This document shows, piece by piece, positions 19,937 to 37,866 of a stretch of DNA of 64,000 nt; within the stretch, counting starts at the first letter, position 1, and each line of letters opens with the position of its first letter. The DNA is from an uncultured Prevotellaceae bacterium (GTDB lineage Bacteria > Bacteroidota > Bacteroidia > Bacteroidales > Muribaculaceae), in NCBI GenBank assembly GCA_947169265.1, contig CAMVPC010000007.1, positions 37,731 through 101,730 of the forward strand, written 5' to 3'. The notes under the pieces were generated by a model. That model did no database searches and was not told the origin of the DNA. It worked only from the letters and a program-made list of their open reading frames with translations. Position numbers and translations under genes: made by a program.

Positions 19937-21556
19937 ATGGAAAATAACCTCTTCATTTACAATACGCTCACGCGCCAAAAACAGCTCTTCAAGCCCATCA
20001 ACGAGGGGCGCGTGGGCATGTATGTGTGCGGTCCCACGGTCTATGGCGACCCGCACTTGGGACACGCGCGACCGGCCATCACTTTCGATGTCCTCTTCCG
20101 CTACCTGCGTTTCCTCGGCTACAAGGTGCGCTACGTGCGCAATATCACCGACGTGGGACACCTCGAGCACGACGCCGACGAGGGTGAGGATAAAATCGCC
20201 AAGAAAGCACGGCTCGAGCAGCTCGAGCCCATGGAGGTGGCCCAGTTTTTCACCAACCGCTACCACGATGCCATGCGCGCGCTCAACGTGCTGCCGCCCA
20301 GCATCGAGCCGCACGCCACGGGCCACATTATCGAGCAGGAGAAACTCGTCGAGCAAATCATCGACAACGGATATGCCTACGTCTCTCACGGTAGCGTCTA
20401 CTTCGACACCGAGGCCTACAACCGCGACCACCGTTACGGCATTCTCTCGGGGCGCAACCTCGACGAGACCCGCGACGCCAGCCGACAGCTCGACGGAGTG
20501 GGGGAGAAGCGTAACCAGGCCGACTTCTCACTGTGGAAGGCCGCGCAACCCGAGCACATCATGCGATGGCCCTCGCCTTGGAGCGACGGTTTCCCCGGCT
20601 GGCACTGCGAGTGCACCGCCATGGGACGCAAATACCTCGGCGAGGAATTCGACATCCACGGCGGCGGCATGGACCTCGTCTTCCCCCACCACGAGTGCGA
20701 AATCGCGCAGGCCGTTGCCGCCCAGGGCAAGCCCATGGTGCGCTACTGGATGCACAACAACATGATCACCATCAACGGGCAGAAAATGGGCAAGTCGCTC
20801 GGCAATTTCATCACGCTCGAGCAGTTCTTCACCGGCGAGCACCCCACGCTCAACCAGCCTTACTCGCCCATGACAGTGCGCTTCTTCATCCTCCAGGCAC
20901 ACTACCGCGGAACCGTCGACTTCAGCAACGACGCGCTGCTCGCCGCGCAAAAGGCCTACGAGCGTATCATCGACGCATGGCACCGACTCCAGGCTCTCCA
21001 GGCCGCTTCCCCCGCCGGTCCCCCGTGCGCCGCCGCTTCCCCTGCCGGTTCCCCGTGCGCCGCCGCTTCCCCCGCCGGTTCCCCGTGCGCCGCCGCTTCC
21101 CCCGCCGGTTCCCCGTGCGCCGCCGCTTCCCCCGACGGTTCCCCGTGCGGCGACTCTGTCGCCGCCACTATAGCCGCCTTGCGCGGCCGCTGCGCCGACG
21201 CCATGAACGACGACCTCAACACCGCCCAGGTCATCGCCACCCTCTTCGACGCTTGTCGACTCATCAACCAGGCCCACGACGGCAACCTCGCGCTCAGCGA
21301 CGACAACATCAACGAGCTCAAGAGCCTCTTCGGCGACTACCTCTTCGACATCCTCGGCATTCGCGACGACGCCGCGGGTGGCGACAACATCGACCTCACC
21401 CCCTACCGCAAGGCCGTCGACCTCCTCCTCGAGCTCCGTCTCAACGCCAAGCGAAACAAAGACTGGGCCACCGGCGACCTCATCCGCGACCGCCTCAACG
21501 AGGCCGGCTTCAGCGTCAAGGATACCAAAGACGGCTTCGAATGGAAACTCCAATGA
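19937..21556 (+). CDS. cysS: Cysteinyl-tRNA synthetase (with repeat-encoded linker insertion)
   Basis: [77 protein letters not shown]. Confidence 0.98.
21001..21150 (+). repeat. 30-bp x 5 tandem repeat inside cysS
   Basis: Five consecutive 30-bp units cgccgcttcccccgccggttccccgtgcgc with a few substitutions; encodes (A)SPAGSPCAA repeats. Confidence 0.97.
21147..21165 (+). repeat. Hairpin repeat GCGGCGAC-TCT-GTCGCCGC in cysS
   Basis: Perfect 8-bp inverted repeat directly after the 30-bp tandem array. Confidence 0.8.
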
Positions 21557-22608: not shown

Positions 22609-22699
22609 GAGCTTAGAGCCTCGAGCCTCGCCCCACGAGCCCCGAGCGAAGAGCCTCGAGCCGCGACCCGCGAGCCATGAGCTTAGAGCGAAGAGCAGC
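22609..22699 (+). repeat. GAGCNNN heptad tract, 13 units
   Basis: gagctta gagcctc gagcctc gccccac gagcccc gagcgaa gagcctc gagccgc gacccgc gagccat gagctta gagcgaa gagcagc, uninterrupted 7-nt phase. Confidence 0.93.
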
Positions 22700-22857
22700 G
22701 AGTGCGTAGCGAGTAACGCCGAAGGCGTGCCAAGGCCAGCGGCCTTGACTTGAACGAAACCCCACGGCGCGTAGGCCGAAGGCCTGCGTGGCGTGGGGCA
22801 TAGTGCCGCACTCTCACGAAGAGCCCCGAAGGGGGTCACAAACAGCGAATCGGCTTC
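22700..22857 (+). repeat. Multi-hairpin repeat core, copy 1a
   Basis: gagtgcgtagcgagtaACGCCGAAGGCGTgcCAAGGCCAGCGGCCTTG...CCCCACGGCGCGTAGGCCGAAGGCCTGCGTGGCGTGGGG...CCCCGAAGGGGG... Confidence 0.95.
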
Positions 22858-22885
22858 GAGCCATGAGCAGTGAGCCGTGAGTCTC
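22858..22885 (+). repeat. GAGCNNN heptad tract, 4 units
   Basis: gagccat gagcagt gagccgt gagtctc. Confidence 0.9.
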
Positions 22886-23040
22886 GAGTGCGTAGCGAGT
22901 AACGCCGAAGGCGTGCCAAGGCCAGCGGCCTTGATTTGAACGAAACCCCACGGCGCGTAGGCCGAAGGCCTGCGTGGCGTGGGGCATAGTGCCGCACTCT
23001 CACGAAGAGCCCCGAAGGGGGTCACAAACAGCGAACCGGC
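22886..23040 (+). repeat. Multi-hairpin repeat core, copy 1b
   Basis: Near-identical to copy 1a. Confidence 0.95.
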
Positions 23041-23234: not shown

Positions 23235-23304
23235 CCCGTAGACCCCAAAAAGCCCTCACGTGCGCTCCATGCGCATTCCTTAAAAGAAAAATCCGTAAAA
23301 AAAC

Positions 23305-23335
23305 TTGCCCATATCAACCAAAATATTTAAATTTG
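23305..23335 (+). promoter_or_regulatory. Promoter TTG-N20-TAAATTTG upstream of the ATPase/partner cassette
   Basis: TTG 23305-23307, 20-nt spacer, TAAATTTG 23328-23335; start codon at 23392. Confidence 0.65.
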
Positions 23336-23391
23336 CCCAATTTTTATACAACAGACTATCGCACGCCTCTAACCAATATGCTTCATACACG

Positions 23392-24546
23392 ATGATTGAG
23401 CAGCTGTCCATATCAAATGTAGGCCCTATTGCCAACGCTTCGGTGTGCTTTGGCGACCTCACCATTCTCGTGGGGCCACAGGCAAGCGGCAAGAGTATTT
23501 TTCTCGAAACCCTTAAACTCGCCGCCGACCGCGGCTACATCATCGACGCGCTCAACCGCTACGGATATGTCATAGGACGACATTCTCACAACATCCTCAA
23601 TGGTTTCTACGGCGAAGGCCTCTCTGCCATTTGGCGGAAAGGAGCCTCTGTCACGCTCAACGGGAACAAAATCACTCGCAAGTCGCTCTCGCAGGCCACG
23701 CAACAGCCTCAGGGCGAAACCCTCTACTACATCCCTGCCCAGCGCATACTCTCAATTGACGATGGGCGGCTGCGACAGTTCTCCGAGTTCAGCTACGCCA
23801 CCCCCTTTGTGCTACGACGCTTCAGCGAGACGCTGCGAGTCTTTATCCAGCACGAAACAGGACAGAACAATGTACTTTTCCCGCCGCGCTACCGCCTCAA
23901 GGGTGATAGCTGCAAGCCGCTCAACGAGAGTATTTTCCACGACGCTCGCGTCGCCATGGAAGAACAGATGGGGCAAAAACGCATGATACTCACCATCGAT
24001 GGCGCGCGCTTGCCCTTCATCACTTGGAGCGCCGGACAAAAAGAGTTCATGCCACTGCTGCTCGCTTTCTACAACCTCACTACCAAGTCGCGGCTTGTCA
24101 AGCAAGAACCTTATAGCACCGTCGTCATCGAAGAGCCCGAGATGGGACTGCATCCGCAGGCCATCGTTCACACCATCCTGCTTGTGTGCGAACTCTTACA
24201 AACCTACGATTACCGCGTCGTCATCTCTACCCACTCGCCCATCTTCCTCGAGTTCGCGTGGGCTTTCAATTTCCTGCGGCACCGGCGCGACAAGGCCCAT
24301 CAGGCCATCTGCGAAATATTCAACGTCACGCCCGATTCAGCCATTGGGCAAATGCTCAAAGGGCTTGAACAGCGAAACATCAACACCTATTATTTCTCGA
24401 GGCGCAAACTCGACAACCGCGTCACCGCACGCGACATCAGCTCGCTCGACGCCCAAGACGACGACATTATCGCCGACTGGGGCGGTATCACATCCTTCGC
24501 TTCACGGCTCGGACAAATTGTTGCAAAGTATGCCACGCAACAATAA
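23392..24546 (+). CDS. ABC/SMC-like AAA ATPase (AAA_15/AAA_21 type)
   Basis: ISNVGPIANASVCFGDLTILVGPQASGKSIFLE; WSAGQKEFMPLL; TVVIEEPEMGLHPQAI; VVISTHSPIFLEF. Confidence 0.88.
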   Translation: MIEQLSISNVGPIANASVCFGDLTILVGPQASGKSIFLETLKLAADRGYIIDALNRYGYVIGRHSHNILNGFYGEGLSAIWRKGASVTLNGNKITRKSLSQATQQPQGETLYYIPAQRILSIDDGRLRQFSEFSYATPFVLRRFSETLRVFIQHETGQNNVLFPPRYRLKGDSCKPLNESIFHDARVAMEEQMGQKRMILTIDGARLPFITWSAGQKEFMPLLLAFYNLTTKSRLVKQEPYSTVVIEEPEMGLHPQAIVHTILLVCELLQTYDYRVVISTHSPIFLEFAWAFNFLRHRRDKAHQAICEIFNVTPDSAIGQMLKGLEQRNINTYYFSRRKLDNRVTARDISSLDAQDDDIIADWGGITSFASRLGQIVAKYATQQ

Positions 24547-25024
24547 ACATATCGATAACATCTGTTCCCCGATGCAGGCTGCCGCCTGCCACACTCCCCA
24601 CGTTGCGCACGCCTGGAAACCCGGGCTTCGCGCTATTAAAAATGTTGAACGACAAAAGTTTGTCATCAAAAAAGGAAATAACATCGACGGCTCAATCGAC
24701 ATCGATGCCGCCACTAAAGAACTCTATCCTAACGACTACCGATGGGACTACGCCATCGGAGTCAACGGAAAAGTCTTCTTCGTCGAGATTCACCCGGCTA
24801 CCGAAAGCGAGGTCGATACTGTCATCTGCAAACTCAAGTGGCTCAAACAATGGTTGAACAATAAGGCACCATGCATCAAGGCACTACAGCATCCCATTGC
24901 CCCTTTCTTTTGGCTTTTCACCAATCGAAACATGATTCCAAAAAACTCAAAAAAACTACGTGCTCTCGCCCAAAACGGCATACCGCAGCCCACCTTACAG
25001 TGGCACTACGAACAAATCAATTAA
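24530..25024 (+). CDS. Conserved hypothetical partner, possible divergent PD-(D/E)XK-like fold
   Basis: Start overlaps the ATPase stop; YRWDYAIGVNGKVFFVEIHPATESEVDTVICKLKWLKQWL resembles D-x(n)-ExK nuclease geometry with H in place of K. Confidence 0.6.
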   Translation: MPRNNKHIDNICSPMQAAACHTPHVAHAWKPGLRAIKNVERQKFVIKKGNNIDGSIDIDAATKELYPNDYRWDYAIGVNGKVFFVEIHPATESEVDTVICKLKWLKQWLNNKAPCIKALQHPIAPFFWLFTNRNMIPKNSKKLRALAQNGIPQPTLQWHYEQIN

Positions 25025-25068: not shown

Positions 25069-28000
25069 ATGAAAAAACTTCTAACAATTTTATTCACAAC
25101 GCTGCTCGCCTACGCCGTAGGATTCGACGTCGGCTGGGCAGCAGAGAAAACCATTACCCTTGACTACAGTTCTTTTGGACTAACAACTTCCTATGCACTA
25201 AAAACTGCAACTGTTGATGGATTCGGTTTTACCGTTAACCAGGGTTATAAAGGCACTGGAAATTCAATCCAAATGAACTCGTCGAAAGGTAGCGGAATTT
25301 TGTATAATACAACAGCCATTCCTGGCTTGAAATCGATAGAAGTGAATGTGTCTTCTGGTAATAAAACTTATACCATAACCACAGGAACTTCACAAAATCC
25401 GACTGCAAATAGCCAAACAGGAACAACAGGAGGTACTTATAACGCAGTAAGTGGAGATACTTACTTTCAGTTAAAAGTCTCTGGAGCAAGCTATTTTTCG
25501 TCAATAGTTATCACTTACGATGACGGTGGCTCCACCCCCGAGCCTACGACTTACTCGCTGACTTTGCCCACCGGGCTTACCGGCGGTACTGTCACGAGTG
25601 ATCAATCTGACAATAGCGCTATTGTTGCCGGTACATCGGTAACTGTTACCGCGACTCCCGAAACCGGCTACGAACTTGATTGGATGAAAGCTAACGGCAC
25701 CGATGTGACGAGTCCTTACACTTTCAATATTAATGCAAACACAACCATCACTGCAGCCTTCAAGGAGACACAAGTAACGCCCCCATCAACTGATCAATAT
25801 CAATTAGTTACAGATGCTTCACAACTTGCGGCGGGTGACAAAATCATCATCGTCAACACCGGCACTGATGGTTCGGGAAAAGCAATGAGCACTACGCAAA
25901 ACGATAATAATCGTGGTGCGGCAGATGTAAGTATTAGTAACTCCATCATTACTCCTGGAAGTTCAGTGCAAATTATCACACTGGAGAAAGATGGTGACAA
26001 CTGGCTCTTTAATGTTGGGAGTGGCTACCTTTATGCGGCCTCTTCAAGTAAAAACTACTTGAGGACTGAAACTGATCCAGATGCCAATGCAAATGCTACA
26101 ATCTCTATTAGCAGTGGCGCGGCAACTGTTAAGTTCCAGGGTACAAACACCCGCAATTTGTTGAAGTATAATTCAAACAGTGATATTTTCTCTTGCTATG
26201 CAAGCGGTCAACAAGATATTTTCATCTATAAGAAAGTGGAGGCCGCTGTTGACAAGGCTTACGACGTAACCGTGGCAACCGGGCTTACCGGCGGCTCCGT
26301 TGATGCCGATCCTAAGGGCACGAAGGTCGTCGACAGCGGCGATGAAATCACCGTGACCGCTACGCCCGCCACCGGCTACGACCTGAGCGCGTGGAACATC
26401 ACCGGCGTGAGCGAAAGCATGACCTCGCTGGGCACCACCAATCCCGCTACCGTCACCGCTACTGGCAACGTCAACGTATCGGCCAACTTCACCCAGCACA
26501 ACTACACGATTTCTACGGCTGTTAACCCGAGCAATGCCGCTACCGATGGCAATTCCTGCGCTGTGTGGATGCAGAGTGGCTTCACCTTAATCGAAAACGT
26601 GGCTACCGCAACCTATGGCGCCACGGTTTCGGTTAAGCTGCACACCAGCAACGGATGGATGGTGGATGGTATCAGCATCACCGGCGTTAACGCCAATGAT
26701 ATCACGCTTACCAACACCGAGGACGACGGCAAGACCTACTCGTTCCCGATGCCGGCACAGGATATCACCATCACCGGTAACTTCACGCCTTACCGCCCCA
26801 CGCTGAGTATGGCAGGCCGTTTCAACGGCAACACCAATTGGCGCACAAGCGGAGGCCCCGAGTTCACCTATAACAGCTCCAACGACGAGTACACCCTCGA
26901 CGTGTACTTCACCGGCGAAGGCGATGGCAACTACTTCTACTTCAGGGCCGGCAACAGCGACCTCAAGGCCGCCAACGGCAATGAGAGTAACTATGGCATC
27001 AACGACAACAACATGAGCCAGACCCACAGCCTGGGCGGTAGCCGCAACTTCGAGATTCTCTCGGGCGTCTATACCTTCACTGTGAATGGTGCTCTCACCA
27101 CGCTCAACGTCACGCCTAAGACCTACACCATCGCCTTCTCGCCCGCAAGCGGAAGCGAAGTGGAGCAGGGTACCCAGGTCACCGCTTCGTGCGCCCTTGA
27201 AAGCGACATCAACGCTATCAAGAACACCGACAGCGGCGCCGCGGGCGACGTGACTGTGACTTGCAACCCGTCGACGCTGAACACCGTGGGCGCCAACCAG
27301 CAGGTCACCGCCACCGCCACCATCGGCAATTACAGCGTCCCCGGCAACGCCACTTACACCGTGGTGAAAGCCAACTTGAGCAAGACGTATCGTCGCACAA
27401 ATACTCTTACGGTAGGAAAGAAGTATATTATCGTAAATGAAGCCGCCGCGGTAGGTTTCAAGACTGGTGGATATGAAGAAACAATTACTATCAATGACCA
27501 CCAAACGACCTTGGCTGATGGTAGCACGGTAATTGAGTTTACTCTGGGTGGACAGGCCGGCGCCTACACATTCATGAGTGGTTCTAAATATCTGCAGAAT
27601 CCCAGTGGCAATACGGTGAATGTGGCTTCCGACGAAGCTAAGACTTGGGATGTGTCAATCGACGGAAGCTATGACGCCACAATGAAGGCTAATGCGACCA
27701 ATTATTATTTACGATATAATTCCGGAGCAAGCAATAATAGGTTCCGCGCTTATGCAAGCAATTCTACCGCTGCTGCTGTTCAACTCTATGAGCAGGCGGT
27801 TGAGGAGGAGAAGGACTACACGATCACTTACGCTGAGGTGACCGGTGGTAGCGCTACCGGCGCCGCGGGCGCCAACGAGGGCGAAACCGTCACCGTCACC
27901 GCGACGCCCGCCAGCGGCTACGCCTGCACCGGCATCACCGTCAACCCGACCGCCACGGTCACCGACAACGGCGACGGCACCTACTCGTTCACCATGCCCG

Positions 28001-31000
28001 CCGCCAACGTCACCGTCACCCCGACGTTTGTACAGGCCTACGCCATCACCTACGTGGCCGAGCCCACTGCCGGTGGTACCGTCACAGGTGTTGCCAGCGC
28101 TGTGGAAGGCTCGACCGTCATTGTTACCGTAACTCCCAACGCCGACTACCAAATCAGCTCGGTGGTTTACAGCTGGGGTAGTGCCCAAAGTTCAGTGAAT
28201 GTGCCCATCGTCGATGGCAACTATCAAATCACCATGCCCGGTTCGGCGACCACCGTCACCGCTACTTTCGAGAAGATTCCTCACACGTTCACCGTGGTAA
28301 GCGCAAACGGTGAGGTGACCGGCTTGCCCGAGACGGCCACCAGCGGAACATCCGTGACATTCACCGTGACCCCGCACGCCGGCTACGTGGTGAGCAGCGT
28401 GAGCGGTACGTTCAATAACGGCAACAGCAGCCTCAATATCACTGACAATGGCGACGGCACCTACAGCTTCAACATGCCCGCCAGCGACGTGGCCATCACC
28501 GTGACCTACTTCGCCAGCGAGGACTATGAGTTGCTCACCGACCTGGCCGACATCAATGAAGAGGATACTTACCTGATTGTGGGTGGTCCAGCAAGCGATT
28601 TGACATCTATAACCCATGTTATGGGTAACACTTATGCTAATACTCGCCTTAATGCTATTGAGCTTACCGAAAACATTTATGACAATGAGACTGGTGTCAT
28701 CACTTCAACAGCCAACATGTCTATTGTGAACTTTGTTCCTGGCTCGGGCGAAAATGAAGGCAAGTGGGCGATACACAATGCTGCAGGTTATCTCTACAGC
28801 AACAGCAGTGGTAGCCTTTCTATAGGTTCTACTCCTTATTATGCTGAAATCTCTCTTGATGAGAATTCATCCCGTGCTTATATGACCATTGGCTCTGTTT
28901 CGTTGACCTTTAACAGCAATTCACCAATGTTCCGTTTTTACAGCCAGCAACAAGGAGCTGCTTACATCTTCAAGCTGGCCAACAAGAACAAGGTGAAGCG
29001 CCCGAGCATCACCGGCGCTGCCGGCGAATACCTCGGCCTGTACAACTTCATTGGCAAGGACAATGTGAGCATGGCTTGCGCTACCGATGGCGCCACTATC
29101 GAGTACAGCCTCGACGGCGGCAACACCTGGCTGAGCTACAGCGAAGCAGTTGAAATCACGACCAACGCCGCAGGCAACACCGTTGTCGTGATGGCCCGCG
29201 CCACCAAGACCGGCATGGAGCCCAGCGATGCAGTAACCGCCACCTTCACCTGCATCAAGCCCACTGCTCCCACCTTTGGAACAAACGAGGCTGGTGCCTA
29301 CGTGAACCCCGTGTTTGTCTATCCCAAGAGCGCACTCAACGACCGCCGCGCCTATGGTGAGGAGAGCGTAAGCTTCTGCTACACGACGTCAGGTGAAGCC
29401 GACGCTTCAAGCCCTGCAGTAACCACTAGCAACAGCAATGGTTACTACATTGTGCTTGACGACAATGCAACATTGAGCGTGGTTACCGTTATCAATGGCA
29501 TCGCCAGCGATCCTGCAGGCGGTGAGTACACCTTCAGCGTGGATGCTCCCACATTCTCGCTCGCAGGTGGCAACTACGACGGCAACCAGCAGACGCGCCT
29601 GAGCACCAACACCAAGACGCAGCAAAACAACCTCTCGTGGAACACGGTGATTTATTACACCACCGGCAACACCGAGTTTGCGTTCGATGCTACTACCGGT
29701 GAGGTGACCAGCGAGGGATGGGTGGCCTACGACCCCACCAACAGTCCTTATCTCGACATCCTCGCCGCCAATGGTACTACCACCATCAAGGCTGTGACGC
29801 TGAGTAACTACTTCAACGGCCAGACCGAGTACCGCGTCAGCGACGTGACAACCGAGACCTACGTCTTGACGGCCGCTAACCTGGCCATCACCGTCAGCCC
29901 TGCCGCCGGTACCTACGTGAACGCGCAGAGCGTGACCCTCGGCGTGAAGAACGAGATTGGTGACTACACGATTTATTACACAACCGATGGCTCAACGCCT
30001 TCGGCAAACAGCACGCCTTACGCCGGAGCTATCACGGTGGACCACGACATGACTATCAAGGTTTATGCCGTTGATAGCCGCACGGGCGAGGGTGGCACAG
30101 CCACTGCTGAGGCCGTCTATAAGATTGGCATCCAGCCTGTGGTTTACTCGCCGTTCCCCGGCACCATCTACAAGGGTGCCGATGACGACATCGACGTGGA
30201 GATGTTCAGCGTTACGCCTAACGCCAAGATCTACTACACCGTAGCCGAGGGCGAGGACAACTATCCCGACGACCCAACCACAGCATCCACTCTCTACAGC
30301 ACTCCCGTGCCTCTGGAGACCGGCAAGACCTACAACTTCAAGGCCATCGCTGTGATTGGCAGCCTGGTAAGCACTGTAACTCCCGGCACGTTCACCGTCC
30401 AAGCCAAGGGCTCCGGTTGGCTCAACGTCAACGAGATGGCAAATAGCTCAGATGGTACTAACAAAACGCTCGATAACCCCGTGCAAATCGTCTACATGAG
30501 CACGTGGCGCCACAATGGTGAAAAGCCCGAGTTCGCGTTCGTTCGCGACAACAGCGGCTATGGTCTTATCTACTTCGGTGGCAGCGGTGTCACTAAATAC
30601 AATGACTGGACCAAATTCGAGATGGGCGACTGGCTCGCCGGCGGTACTATCAAGGGTACCATGGCTCAATGGGATAATAGCTTCATCAACGAGCTTGGAG
30701 GAAGCACCGGCACGCTCAACACTTGGCCTGAGACAGCTTTGGGCAACACCGCTATCCTGCCCGAGGAGACTACCAACCAGGCAATCAAGGACGGTTGGAC
30801 CTACGAAGGCGCTTACACCGGCAGTGACTACGCCAGCTATATCGACCCCGACAAGAACCTGTTCGGCCACTATGTGCACATGCGCAAGAACACCATCAGC
30901 AACTTGTCGCTTACAAGCTCGAAGTATCTGGGACAAATCACCGACCAGAGTGGTGTGGCCCTGAACTACTACGATGGTTTGTACCTGTTCTCAGGTCACA

Positions 31001-33159
31001 ACGGACGTCCCACTTATGACCAAACGTTCTTCGACAACATCCAGAACAAGGGCGGTACGTTCGACGTCTACGCCATCGTTTACTTCTATGGACCGAATGC
31101 CCATAACGCGGCTTACAGTAATGCTCCTTACGAAATCTTCCCGATTGACTTCGAGTGGATTTATAAGCCACTGTTCAACATCGAGACTGGTACTTACCAC
31201 GAGACTCAGACCATCAGCCTCACTTGTGAGACCGAGGGCGCTCAAATCTGGTACAAGACCAGCGAGATGGAGGCCTATGAGCTTTACACTGGCGCTTTTG
31301 AGGTGGATGCCACAACCACAATCGAGGCTTACTCGACGCTGCCCAGCAAGTATGGCGACCAGCTCGAGAGCGTGATTAACAGCATCACCGTCACAATCGG
31401 TACTGTGGAGGCTCCTGTGATTACCGAGGTGAGTGTGGTTAAGACCGTGGGCGAGAGCGTGACTACCGACATCACCTGCACTACCGAGGACGCTACCATC
31501 TACTACACTACCGATGGCAGCGACCCCAAGACCAGTGAGACTCGCATTGAGTACACCCTGGGGCAGCAACTCACTTTTGAGGAGACTACCACGGTTCGTG
31601 CTATCGCAATGCAAGATGGCTACTACAGCGTTGAGGCCGAGAGCCGCACTTACACCTTCGTGAAGTCGAATGGTATTGAGTACACTCTCGTGACCGAGGC
31701 CAGCCAGCTCAACGAGAACAGCGTCTATGTTATCGTCAACAAAGCCAACAACATGGCAATGAGCACCAACCAGAAGACCAACAACCGTGACGCTGCTGGT
31801 GTGATGTTCAAGAATGCCGACAAGACCATCGTCTATGGCAATGATGACTTGGCACAGTTCACTCTCAAGAAGACTGGTAATAACTGGTACATCCAGACCA
31901 ACAACAGTAGCAAGAACGGCTATCTGAGTGTGGGCAACGGTAATACCCTGCTCACCCAGGCTACTGCCGACGGCAACGCCGAGGCTTCCATCACCATCGA
32001 TGGCACCAACGCCGACGTCGACAAGGCCAACGAGGCCCACATTAGTTTCATCTACAACAATGAGACTACCCGCTACATGCGTTACTGGAACCGTGACCAC
32101 CTGTTTAACACTTACACCACCGAGACCAACGCGCCGGTATTCCTGTACTACGTTGAGGCTACTCCGCTCGCTACCATCGAGAAGGAAGGCACCACCGATA
32201 AGCAGTACACCGTGGCCGATGAGCTCGTCGTTGTGCATGCCTTTGGCAACAAGCTCTGGGTCAAGGACCAGGGCGACTTGTCGATTGCAAAGCGCGAGAA
32301 ACCCGAAGGCCAAATCGACTACATGCGCGAAACAGCCGCCAGCGGCACCACCAACGGCGTGACCGTGCTCAAGCAGGAAGGCGAATGGGACCAGAGCAAC
32401 TGGGCCATCATCGAGTTCCTTAACAGCGACATGACCGAAGACGTCGTTGCTGGCTATAAGGGCAAGTTCATCAAGCCCGCATCGCTCACAGGTATCTATA
32501 GCGACAACTTGAATTACACCATTCAAGTGCCCGCAACCGTGAGCAAGAACGAGGTGGATGCCTGGATTGGCGACGCTGCCGAGTATACGCCCAACGTCTT
32601 TAGCCCGTCGAACTTCCTTGACGCTAACCTTACCGACGAAGGCGTCACCAGCACCGTCAACAACGTCACCTACTTCTTCATGAATCCCAAGGTGCAGGAG
32701 GTGGCTACGATCACTTACGCTGTGTGGGACGGCTCGAAGTTCGTCGTGCCCGCCAAGTATAACGAAGTGCTCAACGGTGCCGACCTGCCCGGCGCATTCA
32801 CGCCCGAGTGGACCTACAACCCCGGCGGAAAGCCCGAGCTCACCGTGGGTGAAGCCTACCAGTTCCTCGCTGTGATGAACAGGGTGCCGCAAGGTGGCGG
32901 CAACGGCGCTCCCCGCAAGGTGAACGGTAAGGAAGGCAATGCCGACACTAACAAGGTTGTCATGCCGCTTAACCTGAGTGGCGGCAACGGCAATGTCGTC
33001 ACCGCTATCGACGACGTCAACACCGCTAACCGCGAGGTAGTGGGCGTTGAGTACTACAACGTGGCCGGACAGCGCAGCGACCGTCCCGTCGAGGGCGTCA
33101 ACATCGTGGTGACGCGCTACAGCGACGGCAGCACGAGCACCGCAAAGGTCCTGAAATAA
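25069..33159 (+). CDS. Giant secreted multidomain repeat protein (InlB-like beta repeats, CHB_HEX_C-like repeats)
   Basis: Signal peptide; repeated YxVTVATGLTGGxVxxxPxGT...TVTATPATGYDL and IYYTTDGSTPS; C-terminal YYNVAGQRSDRPVEGVNIVVTRYSDGSTSTAKVLK. Confidence 0.85.
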   Translation: MKKLLTILFTTLLAYAVGFDVGWAAEKTITLDYSSFGLTTSYALKTATVDGFGFTVNQGYKGTGNSIQMNSSKGSGILYNTTAIPGLKSIEVNVSSGNKTYTITTGTSQNPTANSQTGTTGGTYNAVSGDTYFQLKVSGASYFSSIVITYDDGGSTPEPTTYSLTLPTGLTGGTVTSDQSDNSAIVAGTSVTVTATPETGYELDWMKANGTDVTSPYTFNINANTTITAAFKETQVTPPSTDQYQLVTDASQLAAGDKIIIVNTGTDGSGKAMSTTQNDNNRGAADVSISNSIITPGSSVQIITLEKDGDNWLFNVGSGYLYAASSSKNYLRTETDPDANANATISISSGAATVKFQGTNTRNLLKYNSNSDIFSCYASGQQDIFIYKKVEAAVDKAYDVTVATGLTGGSVDADPKGTKVVDSGDEITVTATPATGYDLSAWNITGVSESMTSLGTTNPATVTATGNVNVSANFTQHNYTISTAVNPSNAATDGNSCAVWMQSGFTLIENVATATYGATVSVKLHTSNGWMVDGISITGVNANDITLTNTEDDGKTYSFPMPAQDITITGNFTPYRPTLSMAGRFNGNTNWRTSGGPEFTYNSSNDEYTLDVYFTGEGDGNYFYFRAGNSDLKAANGNESNYGINDNNMSQTHSLGGSRNFEILSGVYTFTVNGALTTLNVTPKTYTIAFSPASGSEVEQGTQVTASCALESDINAIKNTDSGAAGDVTVTCNPSTLNTVGANQQVTATATIGNYSVPGNATYTVVKANLSKTYRRTNTLTVGKKYIIVNEAAAVGFKTGGYEETITINDHQTTLADGSTVIEFTLGGQAGAYTFMSGSKYLQNPSGNTVNVASDEAKTWDVSIDGSYDATMKANATNYYLRYNSGASNNRFRAYASNSTAAAVQLYEQAVEEEKDYTITYAEVTGGSATGAAGANEGETVTVTATPASGYACTGITVNPTATVTDNGDGTYSFTMPAANVTVTPTFVQAYAITYVAEPTAGGTVTGVASAVEGSTVIVTVTPNADYQISSVVYSWGSAQSSVNVPIVDGNYQITMPGSATTVTATFEKIPHTFTVVSANGEVTGLPETATSGTSVTFTVTPHAGYVVSSVSGTFNNGNSSLNITDNGDGTYSFNMPASDVAITVTYFASEDYELLTDLADINEEDTYLIVGGPASDLTSITHVMGNTYANTRLNAIELTENIYDNETGVITSTANMSIVNFVPGSGENEGKWAIHNAAGYLYSNSSGSLSIGSTPYYAEISLDENSSRAYMTIGSVSLTFNSNSPMFRFYSQQQGAAYIFKLANKNKVKRPSITGAAGEYLGLYNFIGKDNVSMACATDGATIEYSLDGGNTWLSYSEAVEITTNAAGNTVVVMARATKTGMEPSDAVTATFTCIKPTAPTFGTNEAGAYVNPVFVYPKSALNDRRAYGEESVSFCYTTSGEADASSPAVTTSNSNGYYIVLDDNATLSVVTVINGIASDPAGGEYTFSVDAPTFSLAGGNYDGNQQTRLSTNTKTQQNNLSWNTVIYYTTGNTEFAFDATTGEVTSEGWVAYDPTNSPYLDILAANGTTTIKAVTLSNYFNGQTEYRVSDVTTETYVLTAANLAITVSPAAGTYVNAQSVTLGVKNEIGDYTIYYTTDGSTPSANSTPYAGAITVDHDMTIKVYAVDSRTGEGGTATAEAVYKIGIQPVVYSPFPGTIYKGADDDIDVEMFSVTPNAKIYYTVAEGEDNYPDDPTTASTLYSTPVPLETGKTYNFKAIAVIGSLVSTVTPGTFTVQAKGSGWLNVNEMANSSDGTNKTLDNPVQIVYMSTWRHNGEKPEFAFVRDNSGYGLIYFGGSGVTKYNDWTKFEMGDWLAGGTIKGTMAQWDNSFINELGGSTGTLNTWPETALGNTAILPEETTNQAIKDGWTYEGAYTGSDYASYIDPDKNLFGHYVHMRKNTISNLSLTSSKYLGQITDQSGVALNYYDGLYLFSGHNGRPTYDQTFFDNIQNKGGTFDVYAIVYFYGPNAHNAAYSNAPYEIFPIDFEWIYKPLFNIETGTYHETQTISLTCETEGAQIWYKTSEMEAYELYTGAFEVDATTTIEAYSTLPSKYGDQLESVINSITVTIGTVEAPVITEVSVVKTVGESVTTDITCTTEDATIYYTTDGSDPKTSETRIEYTLGQQLTFEETTTVRAIAMQDGYYSVEAESRTYTFVKSNGIEYTLVTEASQLNENSVYVIVNKANNMAMSTNQKTNNRDAAGVMFKNADKTIVYGNDDLAQFTLKKTGNNWYIQTNNSSKNGYLSVGNGNTLLTQATADGNAEASITIDGTNADVDKANEAHISFIYNNETTRYMRYWNRDHLFNTYTTETNAPVFLYYVEATPLATIEKEGTTDKQYTVADELVVVHAFGNKLWVKDQGDLSIAKREKPEGQIDYMRETAASGTTNGVTVLKQEGEWDQSNWAIIEFLNSDMTEDVVAGYKGKFIKPASLTGIYSDNLNYTIQVPATVSKNEVDAWIGDAAEYTPNVFSPSNFLDANLTDEGVTSTVNNVTYFFMNPKVQEVATITYAVWDGSKFVVPAKYNEVLNGADLPGAFTPEWTYNPGGKPELTVGEAYQFLAVMNRVPQGGGNGAPRKVNGKEGNADTNKVVMPLNLSGGNGNVVTAIDDVNTANREVVGVEYYNVAGQRSDRPVEGVNIVVTRYSDGSTSTAKVLK

Positions 33160-33629: not shown

Positions 33630-34481
33630 ATGAATCCCGTCAAACAATGGTGCAAAGCGCTCGTTGCCAACGCCTGGTTCCAGCACTTCATCACCTTCAT
33701 CATCATCCTCAACTGCCTCTTCATCGGCATCGAGACCTACACCACCATCCCGGCCATCACCGTGTGCCAGCACATCATCCTGGCCATCTTCACCTTTGAG
33801 ATAATCGTGCGCTTTATCGCCGCCGACGGCCTGCTCAACTTCCTCAAGAGCGGATGGAACATCTTCGACTCCTTGCTCGTCATCATCAGCTTCATTCCCG
33901 AGGACATCTTCGGCGGAGGCTCGTCCCTGCTCGCCCTGCGTGTGCTGCGCGTCTTCCGCGTGCTGCGACTGTTGCGGAGCGCTAAAGAAATCCGCCTTAT
34001 CATCACCGTCCTCGTCAAGTCGATGAGCGCCCTGTTCTACAACGTCATCTTCTTCTTCATCTTCGTCTATCTCTTCGCCATCATCGGTGTGGGCATCTTC
34101 CGCCTGCCCGACCCCGAGACGCTCGACGACGCCGGCAAGGCCAAGCTCGAACTGTATCAGCAGATAGCACCCAACGCGCCCTCTAACAGCCCCGACCCCT
34201 TCGGCACCCTGGGCGAAGCCTTCTTCACCCTCTTCCGCGAGCTCACCGGCGAGGACTGGACCGACGTGCGCTACAACCTCGTCACGGCCTCCGACATGGG
34301 CCTCATCAAGGTCTCACCCACAGTCATCACCACTTACCATGTGCTGTGGTTCATCCTATCGGCCTTCCTGCTGCTCAACCTCGTCGTGGGTGCCATCGTC
34401 AACAACTACCAGATAGTGATGGAAAAAAGCCGCGACGAGCACGACGACGAACCGCAACCCGAATCCCCGCAGCAAGAATAA
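33630..34481 (+). CDS. Voltage-gated-like cation channel (Ion_trans family)
   Basis: S4-like LRVLRVFRVLRLLRSAKEIR; pore FTLFRELTGEDWTDVRYN; S6 FILSAFLLLNLVVGAIVNNYQ. Confidence 0.93.
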   Translation: MNPVKQWCKALVANAWFQHFITFIIILNCLFIGIETYTTIPAITVCQHIILAIFTFEIIVRFIAADGLLNFLKSGWNIFDSLLVIISFIPEDIFGGGSSLLALRVLRVFRVLRLLRSAKEIRLIITVLVKSMSALFYNVIFFFIFVYLFAIIGVGIFRLPDPETLDDAGKAKLELYQQIAPNAPSNSPDPFGTLGEAFFTLFRELTGEDWTDVRYNLVTASDMGLIKVSPTVITTYHVLWFILSAFLLLNLVVGAIVNNYQIVMEKSRDEHDDEPQPESPQQE

Positions 34482-34501
34482 CCCCGCCGCCCCGCATCGC
34501 T

Positions 34502-35413
34502 ATGGCACGAAACCTCATCTACCGCTACATTTGGCTCATCGACACCATCGAGCGCTATGGCTCGCTCTCGCTCACTCGCCTCAACGAACTGTGGGTCAAC
34601 TCCACCGTGGGCGACAAGAACCCCTTGCCGCGACGCACCTTCTACAACCACCGCCGCGCCATCGCCGAGACCTTCGGCATCGCCATCGAGTGTGACCCCC
34701 GCACCTACGAGTATTTCATCGACCGCGAGAACACCGAGCTCGACCTGCGCCGCCAGCAATGGCTCCTCGACTCCATGTCGCTCAGCGGCATGCTTAGCGA
34801 CGCCGGCGACGTGAGCACGCGCATCGTCCTCGAGAACGTGCCCAGCGCCAGAAAACACCTGCCCCTCGTGATCGACGCCATGCGCCAGAACAAGCGCATC
34901 AGCTTCAGCTACAAGCCCTATACGCGCCTCACGGTCACCCGCAACGTCGTCATCGAGCCTTATTTCGTCAAAATCTTCAGGCAACTGTGGTACGTCGTGG
35001 GATACAACGTGCGCGACGCCCGCGTCAAGACCTACGCCCTCGACCGCATGAGCGACCTCTTGCTCACCTCCACCACCTTCAGCCTCCCCAAGGGATTCGA
35101 CGCCCAGTCGTTCTTCAAAGACTGCTACGGCATTGTCACCAGCCACGCCGAGCCTAAGCGCATCGTCATCCGCGCCAGTGCCACCCAGGCCAAGTACTTC
35201 CGCGCCCTGCCGCTCCACCCCTCGCAGCAAGAAGAGGTGCACGACGCTTACTCCATCTTCACTTACCGCATGTACAACACCTACGACCTGCGCGAGCGAC
35301 TGCTCTCCCACGGCGCCAACGTCGAGGTCATCGCGCCGCCCGAGCTGCGCGCCCAAATCGTCGACGAACTGCGCAACACCATCAAAAATTACGAGCCTAC
35401 CCGCAAAAATTAA
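34502..35413 (+). CDS. WYL-domain transcriptional regulator
   Basis: MARNLIYRYIWLIDTIERYGSLSLTRLNELW N-terminus; IDAMRQNKRISFSYKPYTR...PYFVKIFRQLWYVVGYN...YALDRMSDL WYL core. Confidence 0.9.
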   Translation: MARNLIYRYIWLIDTIERYGSLSLTRLNELWVNSTVGDKNPLPRRTFYNHRRAIAETFGIAIECDPRTYEYFIDRENTELDLRRQQWLLDSMSLSGMLSDAGDVSTRIVLENVPSARKHLPLVIDAMRQNKRISFSYKPYTRLTVTRNVVIEPYFVKIFRQLWYVVGYNVRDARVKTYALDRMSDLLLTSTTFSLPKGFDAQSFFKDCYGIVTSHAEPKRIVIRASATQAKYFRALPLHPSQQEEVHDAYSIFTYRMYNTYDLRERLLSHGANVEVIAPPELRAQIVDELRNTIKNYEPTRKN

Positions 35414-37183: not shown

Positions 37184-37340
37184 GAGTGCGCAGAGAGTAA
37201 CGCCGAAGGCGTGCCAAGGCCAGCGGCCTTGACTTGGACTAAACCCCACGGCGCGTAGGCCGAAGGCCTGCGTGGCGTGGGGATAGTAGCCCACACTCAT
37301 GAGGAGCCCCGAAGGGGGTCACAAACGGCGAACCGGCTTC
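37184..37340 (+). repeat. Multi-hairpin repeat core, copy 3a
   Basis: 157 nt; same core as copy 2. Confidence 0.95.
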
Positions 37341-37375
37341 GAGCAACGAGCTTTGAGCAGTGAGCAATGAGCCTC
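37341..37375 (+). repeat. GAGCNNN heptad tract, 5 units
   Basis: gagcaac gagcttt gagcagt gagcaat gagcctc. Confidence 0.93.
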
Positions 37376-37532
37376 GAGTGCGCAGAGAGTAACGCCGAAG
37401 GCGTGCCAAGGCCAGCGGCCTTGACTTGGACTAAACCCCACGGCGCGTAGGCCGAAGGCCTGCGTGGCGTGGGGATAGTAGCCCACACTCATGAGGAGCC
37501 CCGAAGGGGGTCACAAACGGCGAATCGGCTTC
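37376..37532 (+). repeat. Multi-hairpin repeat core, copy 3b
   Basis: 157 nt; same core as copy 2. Confidence 0.95.
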
Positions 37533-37602
37533 GAGCAACGAGCCGTGAGTATTGAGCAACGAGCCATGACCGTCGAGCTTAGAGCAGCGAGCGAAGAGCA
37601 CC
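37533..37602 (+). repeat. GAGCNNN heptad tract, 10 units
   Basis: gagcaac gagccgt gagtatt gagcaac gagccat gaccgtc gagctta gagcagc gagcgaa gagcacc. Confidence 0.93.
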
Positions 37603-37621
37603 CGGACGGTGCCCTCTGAGT

Positions 37622-37650
37622 GCCCCCAGTGAACGCGTTTCACTGGGGGC
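37622..37650. repeat. Perfect hairpin between core copies 3b and 3c
   Basis: GCCCCCAGTGAA-acgcg-TTCACTGGGGGC, 12-bp stem. Confidence 0.8.
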
Positions 37651-37709
37651 TGCGCTCGCATCCGCCACTGTCGCCGTAGGCGCCCCCCTCGCCGCTATCC
37701 GTGAGCCTC

Positions 37710-37866
37710 GAGTGCGCAGAGAGTAACGCCGAAGGCGTGTCAGGGCCAGCGGCCTTGACCTGGATGAAACCCCACGGCGCGTAGGCCGAAGGCCTGCGTG
37801 GCGTGGGGATAGTAGCCCACACTCATGAGGAGCCCCGAAGGGGGTCACAAACGGCGAACCGGCTTC
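37710..37866 (+). repeat. Multi-hairpin repeat core, copy 3c
   Basis: 157 nt; minor substitutions (gtgtcagggcc, cctggatgaaa). Confidence 0.95.

Follow-up and report, generated by a model that had tools for sequence, protein, structure and literature searches.

The PARIS sensor, an ABC ATPase, keeps hold of a nuclease effector until a phage trigger releases it (PMC12409363). WonAB pairs an OLD-type ABC ATPase with a PD-(D/E)xK variant; its activation leads to inhibition of translation, overproduction of WonB is toxic only in the presence of active WonA, and a simple sequestration model was excluded (PMC12137116). In addition to such described systems, the PADLOC database carries PDC-x models, described as candidates from Payne et al. 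2021 that are unpublished (PMC11811056). Here we analyzed a pair of overlapping genes on the same strand of a 64,000-nucleotide stretch (the window) from an uncultured Prevotellaceae bacterium, a gut-type member of the Bacteroidota, encoding a 384-aa ATPase (A) and a 164-aa partner (B). The pair resembles WonAB, which is known here by its published description, in having two genes, an OLD-type ABC ATPase without a Toprim domain, a small nuclease-like partner, and carriage on a phage element; however, the catalytic residues of WonAB are E300 and H333 of WonA and K71 of WonB, whereas the corresponding residues here lie at other positions, E247/E248 and H281 in A and an E-x-H motif plus K101 in B. 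In PARIS, too, the ABC ATPase is accompanied by a small effector that is a protein of its own, and the AriA models match A more weakly, as the next PADLOC hit (4e-21); but its AriB is a Toprim tRNase, and B had neither an AriB nor a DUF4435 match in Pfam and PADLOC. Septu shares the layout of an ABC ATPase with a small partner, and PtuA ATPase domains match A weakly, but its PtuB is an HNH nuclease, whereas B matched only PDC-M56B in PADLOC (E up to 1), with no match to PtuB and no HNH domain in Pfam. Gabija was also rejected, as the UvrD-like GajB partner is absent and B showed no helicase match in Pfam and PADLOC. By analogy, the best reading is that the pair would work like the PARIS, Septu, and WonAB sensor-effector systems, although its type of partner sets it apart from Septu, PARIS, and Gabija.

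As searched against PADLOC-DB 2.0.0, A matched the model PDC-M56A (E 6e-143) over residues 3 to 382 (model positions 2 to 379 of 382), and B matched PDC-M56B (E 3.5e-47) over residues 15 to 154 (model positions 8 to 145 of 151). Because both matches are nearly full length, the pair belongs to an already catalogued kind and is not a new system: judged by sequence, it is PDC-M56, a candidate phage-defence pair, whose two models are matched by adjoining genes nearly end to end, with no difference found. The first-pass annotation had proposed a two-gene defence cassette and had taken it as unclassified; the latter was thus incorrect, while the former agrees with the PADLOC matches, the conserved pairing, the patchy distribution, and the mobile contexts described below. 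The catalogue entry is itself a computational candidate, and the literature searched yielded neither the name PDC-M56, nor an experiment on it, nor a published description of its effector class. PADLOC also reported mad3 matches for ABC transporters in the window, which were disregarded as generic ATPase matches.

Table 1. Features of the gene pair (positions in the window)
Feature	Position	Strand	Description	Basis
PDC-M56A	23392..24546	+	384-aa OLD/ABC-type ATPase without Toprim domain	PADLOC, Pfam, motifs
PDC-M56B	24530..25024	+	164-aa probable effector	PADLOC, conservation in 19 homologues
A/B overlap, 17 nt	24530..24546	+		ORF coordinates; spacing in homologous pairs
Probable Bacteroidota-type promoter, CTTG-N20-TAAATTTG	23304..23335	+		Consensus match only

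As shown in Table 1, both open reading frames of the predicted overlapping layout are present. The start of A was placed at the ATG and not at TTG 23305, because homologues begin in register there with MIEQLSISNVGPI; B also starts with an ATG. The overlap of the two genes suggests translational coupling. The promoter that had been claimed for the cassette is supported by a consensus match, since the putative element has one mismatch against the Bacteroidota consensus TTTG/TAnnTTTG and its match quality was equalled in 2 of 2000 mononucleotide shuffles. The cassette had further been described as less GC-rich than its neighbours. This holds against the upstream cysS (64%) and GT2 (65%) genes, compared with 55% for A and 48% for B, but the giant gene downstream is itself at 54%. 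The names cysS, GT2, and DUF3467 are presumptive ones that we took from reading the sequences and not from a family search.

A carries the Walker A motif GPQASGKS, the signature WSAGQKE, VVIEEPEMGLHPQ, and the switch STHS, with VVIEEPEMGLHP as its Walker B, and the Walker A, ABC signature, Walker B, and H-switch motifs were invariant or nearly so among 22 homologues. In Pfam, A matched ATPase families only (AAA_15, 1e-17; AAA_21, 6e-17), with no Toprim domain in its 384 residues; an OLD, Gabija GajA, or other Toprim-bearing ATPase with a fused Toprim was thus rejected. Profile matches were obtained to solved OLD, PtuA, and GajA ATPases, including the OLD-family structure 6p74 (E 9e-14). With all four motifs and this match, A is placed among the OLD-clade ABC ATPases, in agreement with its earlier identification as an ABC-type ATPase and with its PDC-M56A assignment.

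Twelve residues of B, namely G32, A35, S55, D59, W72, D73, Y74, E86, H88, K101, L109, and W128, were invariant in 19 homologues. They include the WDY and ExH that had been noticed at first reading, and add D59 and K101 to that D...ExH pattern; because WDY, ExH, and K101 are all invariant, the motif is not a chance one. A canonical PD-(D/E)xK motif reads D ... (E/Q)xK, and the core fold of this group is alpha-beta-beta-beta-alpha-beta. In B, the invariant D73 and E86-x-H88 would correspond to this motif with H at the position of K, and the motif lysine might be supplied from the next helix by K101, which is also invariant. Two AlphaFold runs, whose models were built from three sequences in a shallow alignment, were of low confidence (mean pLDDT 53 and 44). 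Both low-confidence models show a beta-hairpin in which D73 opens one strand and E86 closes the next, followed by a long helix bearing K101 and one more strand, an order that appears compatible with that expected of a PD-(D/E)xK core.

Searches for relatives of B gave mixed results. Nothing significant was found in Pfam, NCBIfam, or PHROGs, and neither a PDB profile search nor a BFVD fold search returned a match; the earlier observation that B is not obviously HNH-, Toprim-, or UvrD-like was borne out by Pfam, PADLOC, and further family searches. Weak fold matches (Foldseek, VIA) to XisH, EndoMS, and Card1/Can2 were tied with metallo-beta-lactamases. Kinship with Uma2 (PF05685), an idea that came from a D...E...ST...K pattern, was rejected at an hhalign probability of 0.1, no better than reversed controls, and kinship with XisH, taken up from the Foldseek result, gave no profile signal with the single comparison sequence available on the XisH side. 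The resemblance of B to D...ExK with H for K therefore stands as an invariant pattern, while a nuclease fold is not established by it or by the structure prediction that had been suggested as a check. Taken on motif and models, a PD-(D/E)xK-like nuclease is plausible.

Within the family, 8 of 198 and 15 of 397 sampled genomes had a match to B, as did 6 of 395 in the phylum, in samples that overlap and in which a few matches are fragments; among the sampled genomes of its own genus, the genome of the window is the sole carrier. A directly precedes B, in the same order, in 19 loci, 18 of these pairs being spaced at −29 to +6 nt and the remaining one at 197 nt, confirming the conserved gene pair. 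The A and B trees showed no supported conflict, the B tree being poorly resolved. The homologues extend to Candidatus Kapaibacterium (L009), to a tailed-phage contig (L017), and to a mobilizable plasmid of the Opitutaceae bacterium TAV5 of the Verrucomicrobiota (CP007054.1, L035), where the pair was located via A. The PDC-M56B gene of this plasmid (L035:8243-8740) is missing from the PLSDB gene table of CP007054.1. Phage and plasmid records, when queried with the B protein, returned no match, and an IMG/VR search by degenerate DNA patterns yielded L017 as a real hit and otherwise chance hits.

The neighbours of the pair differ between the examined loci; for the most part they are housekeeping genes rather than defence islands. 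On the phage contig (L017:5172-6802), the pair lies on the opposite strand inside a tailed-phage head-tail structural module, with the major head protein on one side of it and a protease-like gene on the other. A small defence island was found in a relative (L015:2968-11206), where DUF3990, a TOTE primase-helicase, and a retron-like reverse transcriptase, which scored best against RT_VI (E 1.1e-76), a model of type VI retron-like enzymes, precede the PDC-M56 pair. Two PADLOC neighbour counts, for PDC-M13A and PDC-M13B, could be traced to no gene in follow-up scans. The pair is real and mobile. In the host genus, a DUF3467-cysS-GT2 block is conserved, and the cassette sits at the variable boundary after GT2; because the genes that follow GT2 differ across the genus, an empty-site comparison could demonstrate no clean insertion site. 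The repeat island that had been taken to suggest acquisition does exist beside the cassette, as a tandem 186-bp unit in 1.8 copies (22699-23040), but its core recurs in 16 copies over several contigs of the genome, 15 of them exact, so that proximity to it does not by itself indicate acquisition. Within the window, this dispersed intergenic repeat family occurs at 22699-23040, 33384, and 37301-37858.

Other features of the window lie nearby. Directly downstream of the cassette, a giant 2696-aa protein (25069-33159) combines InlB-like repeats with chitobiase C-terminal domains, and the cysteinyl-tRNA synthetase gene upstream contains an in-frame 30-bp tandem repeat of 4.9 copies (21002-21149). 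A WYL/WCX-domain protein is encoded about 9 kb downstream of the cassette (34346-35413); regulators of this type are frequent near defence genes.

Decay of the pair was one-sided. In four loci (L019, L025, L105, and L109), A was intact and B was frameshifted or truncated, whereas the reverse, B intact and A broken, occurred in none of the loci examined; a further locus (L022) lacked A and retained a B that is cut at its N terminus. The loci with a broken B are few, and some of the breaks may be draft-assembly errors. This pattern suggests that B is the harmful effector and that A is tolerable alone.

The PADLOC matches, the OLD/ABC motifs, the conserved pairing, the patchy carriage, the phage and plasmid contexts, the decay pattern, and the analogous systems all count in favour of defence, a function that we infer, as we do the nuclease chemistry, target, and trigger of the pair. 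We consider it probable that PDC-M56 is a phage-defence sensor-effector pair acting through abortive infection, with B most likely a nuclease. A would dimerize or oligomerize upon ATP, sense infection, and hold or activate B. The most likely role of B would be that of a metal-dependent nuclease whose PD-(D/E)xK-like centre comprises D73, E86-x-H88, K101, and possibly D59; once triggered, B would cut a nucleic acid, which by comparison with similar systems may be tRNA or rRNA, and the cell would be arrested before phage maturation. Against this explanation stand the H for K, the low pLDDT, the mixed fold matches, the Uma2 and XisH negatives, and the housekeeping neighbourhoods. Of the first-pass proposal of a defence nuclease system, then, the defence part has gained a match in a catalogue of defence candidates and evidence of mobility, but the nuclease part lacks an established fold.

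Several of these points bear on an alternative, a sensor-effector defence pair with B as some other enzyme or as a binding protein, its D/E/H/K residues making up a different active site. By sequence, B matched no nuclease family and no solved nuclease, unrelated folds appeared among the weak matches, and motif III has H instead of K; yet the spacing of D73, E86-x-H88, and K101 and the strand order fit PD-(D/E)xK, and related ABC-ATPase defence pairs use nuclease effectors, so we regard this as possible but unlikely. It is rather doubtful that B belongs to a lineage of nucleases, or to another enzyme fold, unrelated to those described, which would combine an E-x-H motif with a lysine shifted to the following helix and be controlled by an OLD-type ATPase, with tRNA or rRNA as possible targets during infection.

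A toxin-antitoxin-like module, in which A restrains the toxin B and any phage defence is secondary, would be in line with the tight coupling of A and B, with B never being intact without A, and with at least four loci that keep A although B is lost. It is nevertheless improbable, since A differs from typical antitoxins in being a complete ATPase whose catalytic motifs are conserved, and in the analogous WonAB the toxicity of WonB required active WonA (PMC12137116). Least credible, and very improbable, is a housekeeping or DNA-repair operon without a defence role: its neighbours are often housekeeping genes, but they differ at each examined locus, the pair also occurs on a phage and a plasmid, and carriage is confined to 1.5–4% of the sampled genomes and to one sampled genome in the genus, which is not the distribution of a ubiquitous core operon.

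With PDC-M56 read as a probable sensor-effector pair, an anonymous gene pair becomes a defined defence candidate that can be tested, and its candidate catalytic residues are named. Its homologue list now spans phage, plasmid, and chromosomes, and the decay pattern yields a prediction of which gene is the effector. The pair would thereby join the growing group of systems that couple an ABC-ATPase sensor to a nuclease effector.
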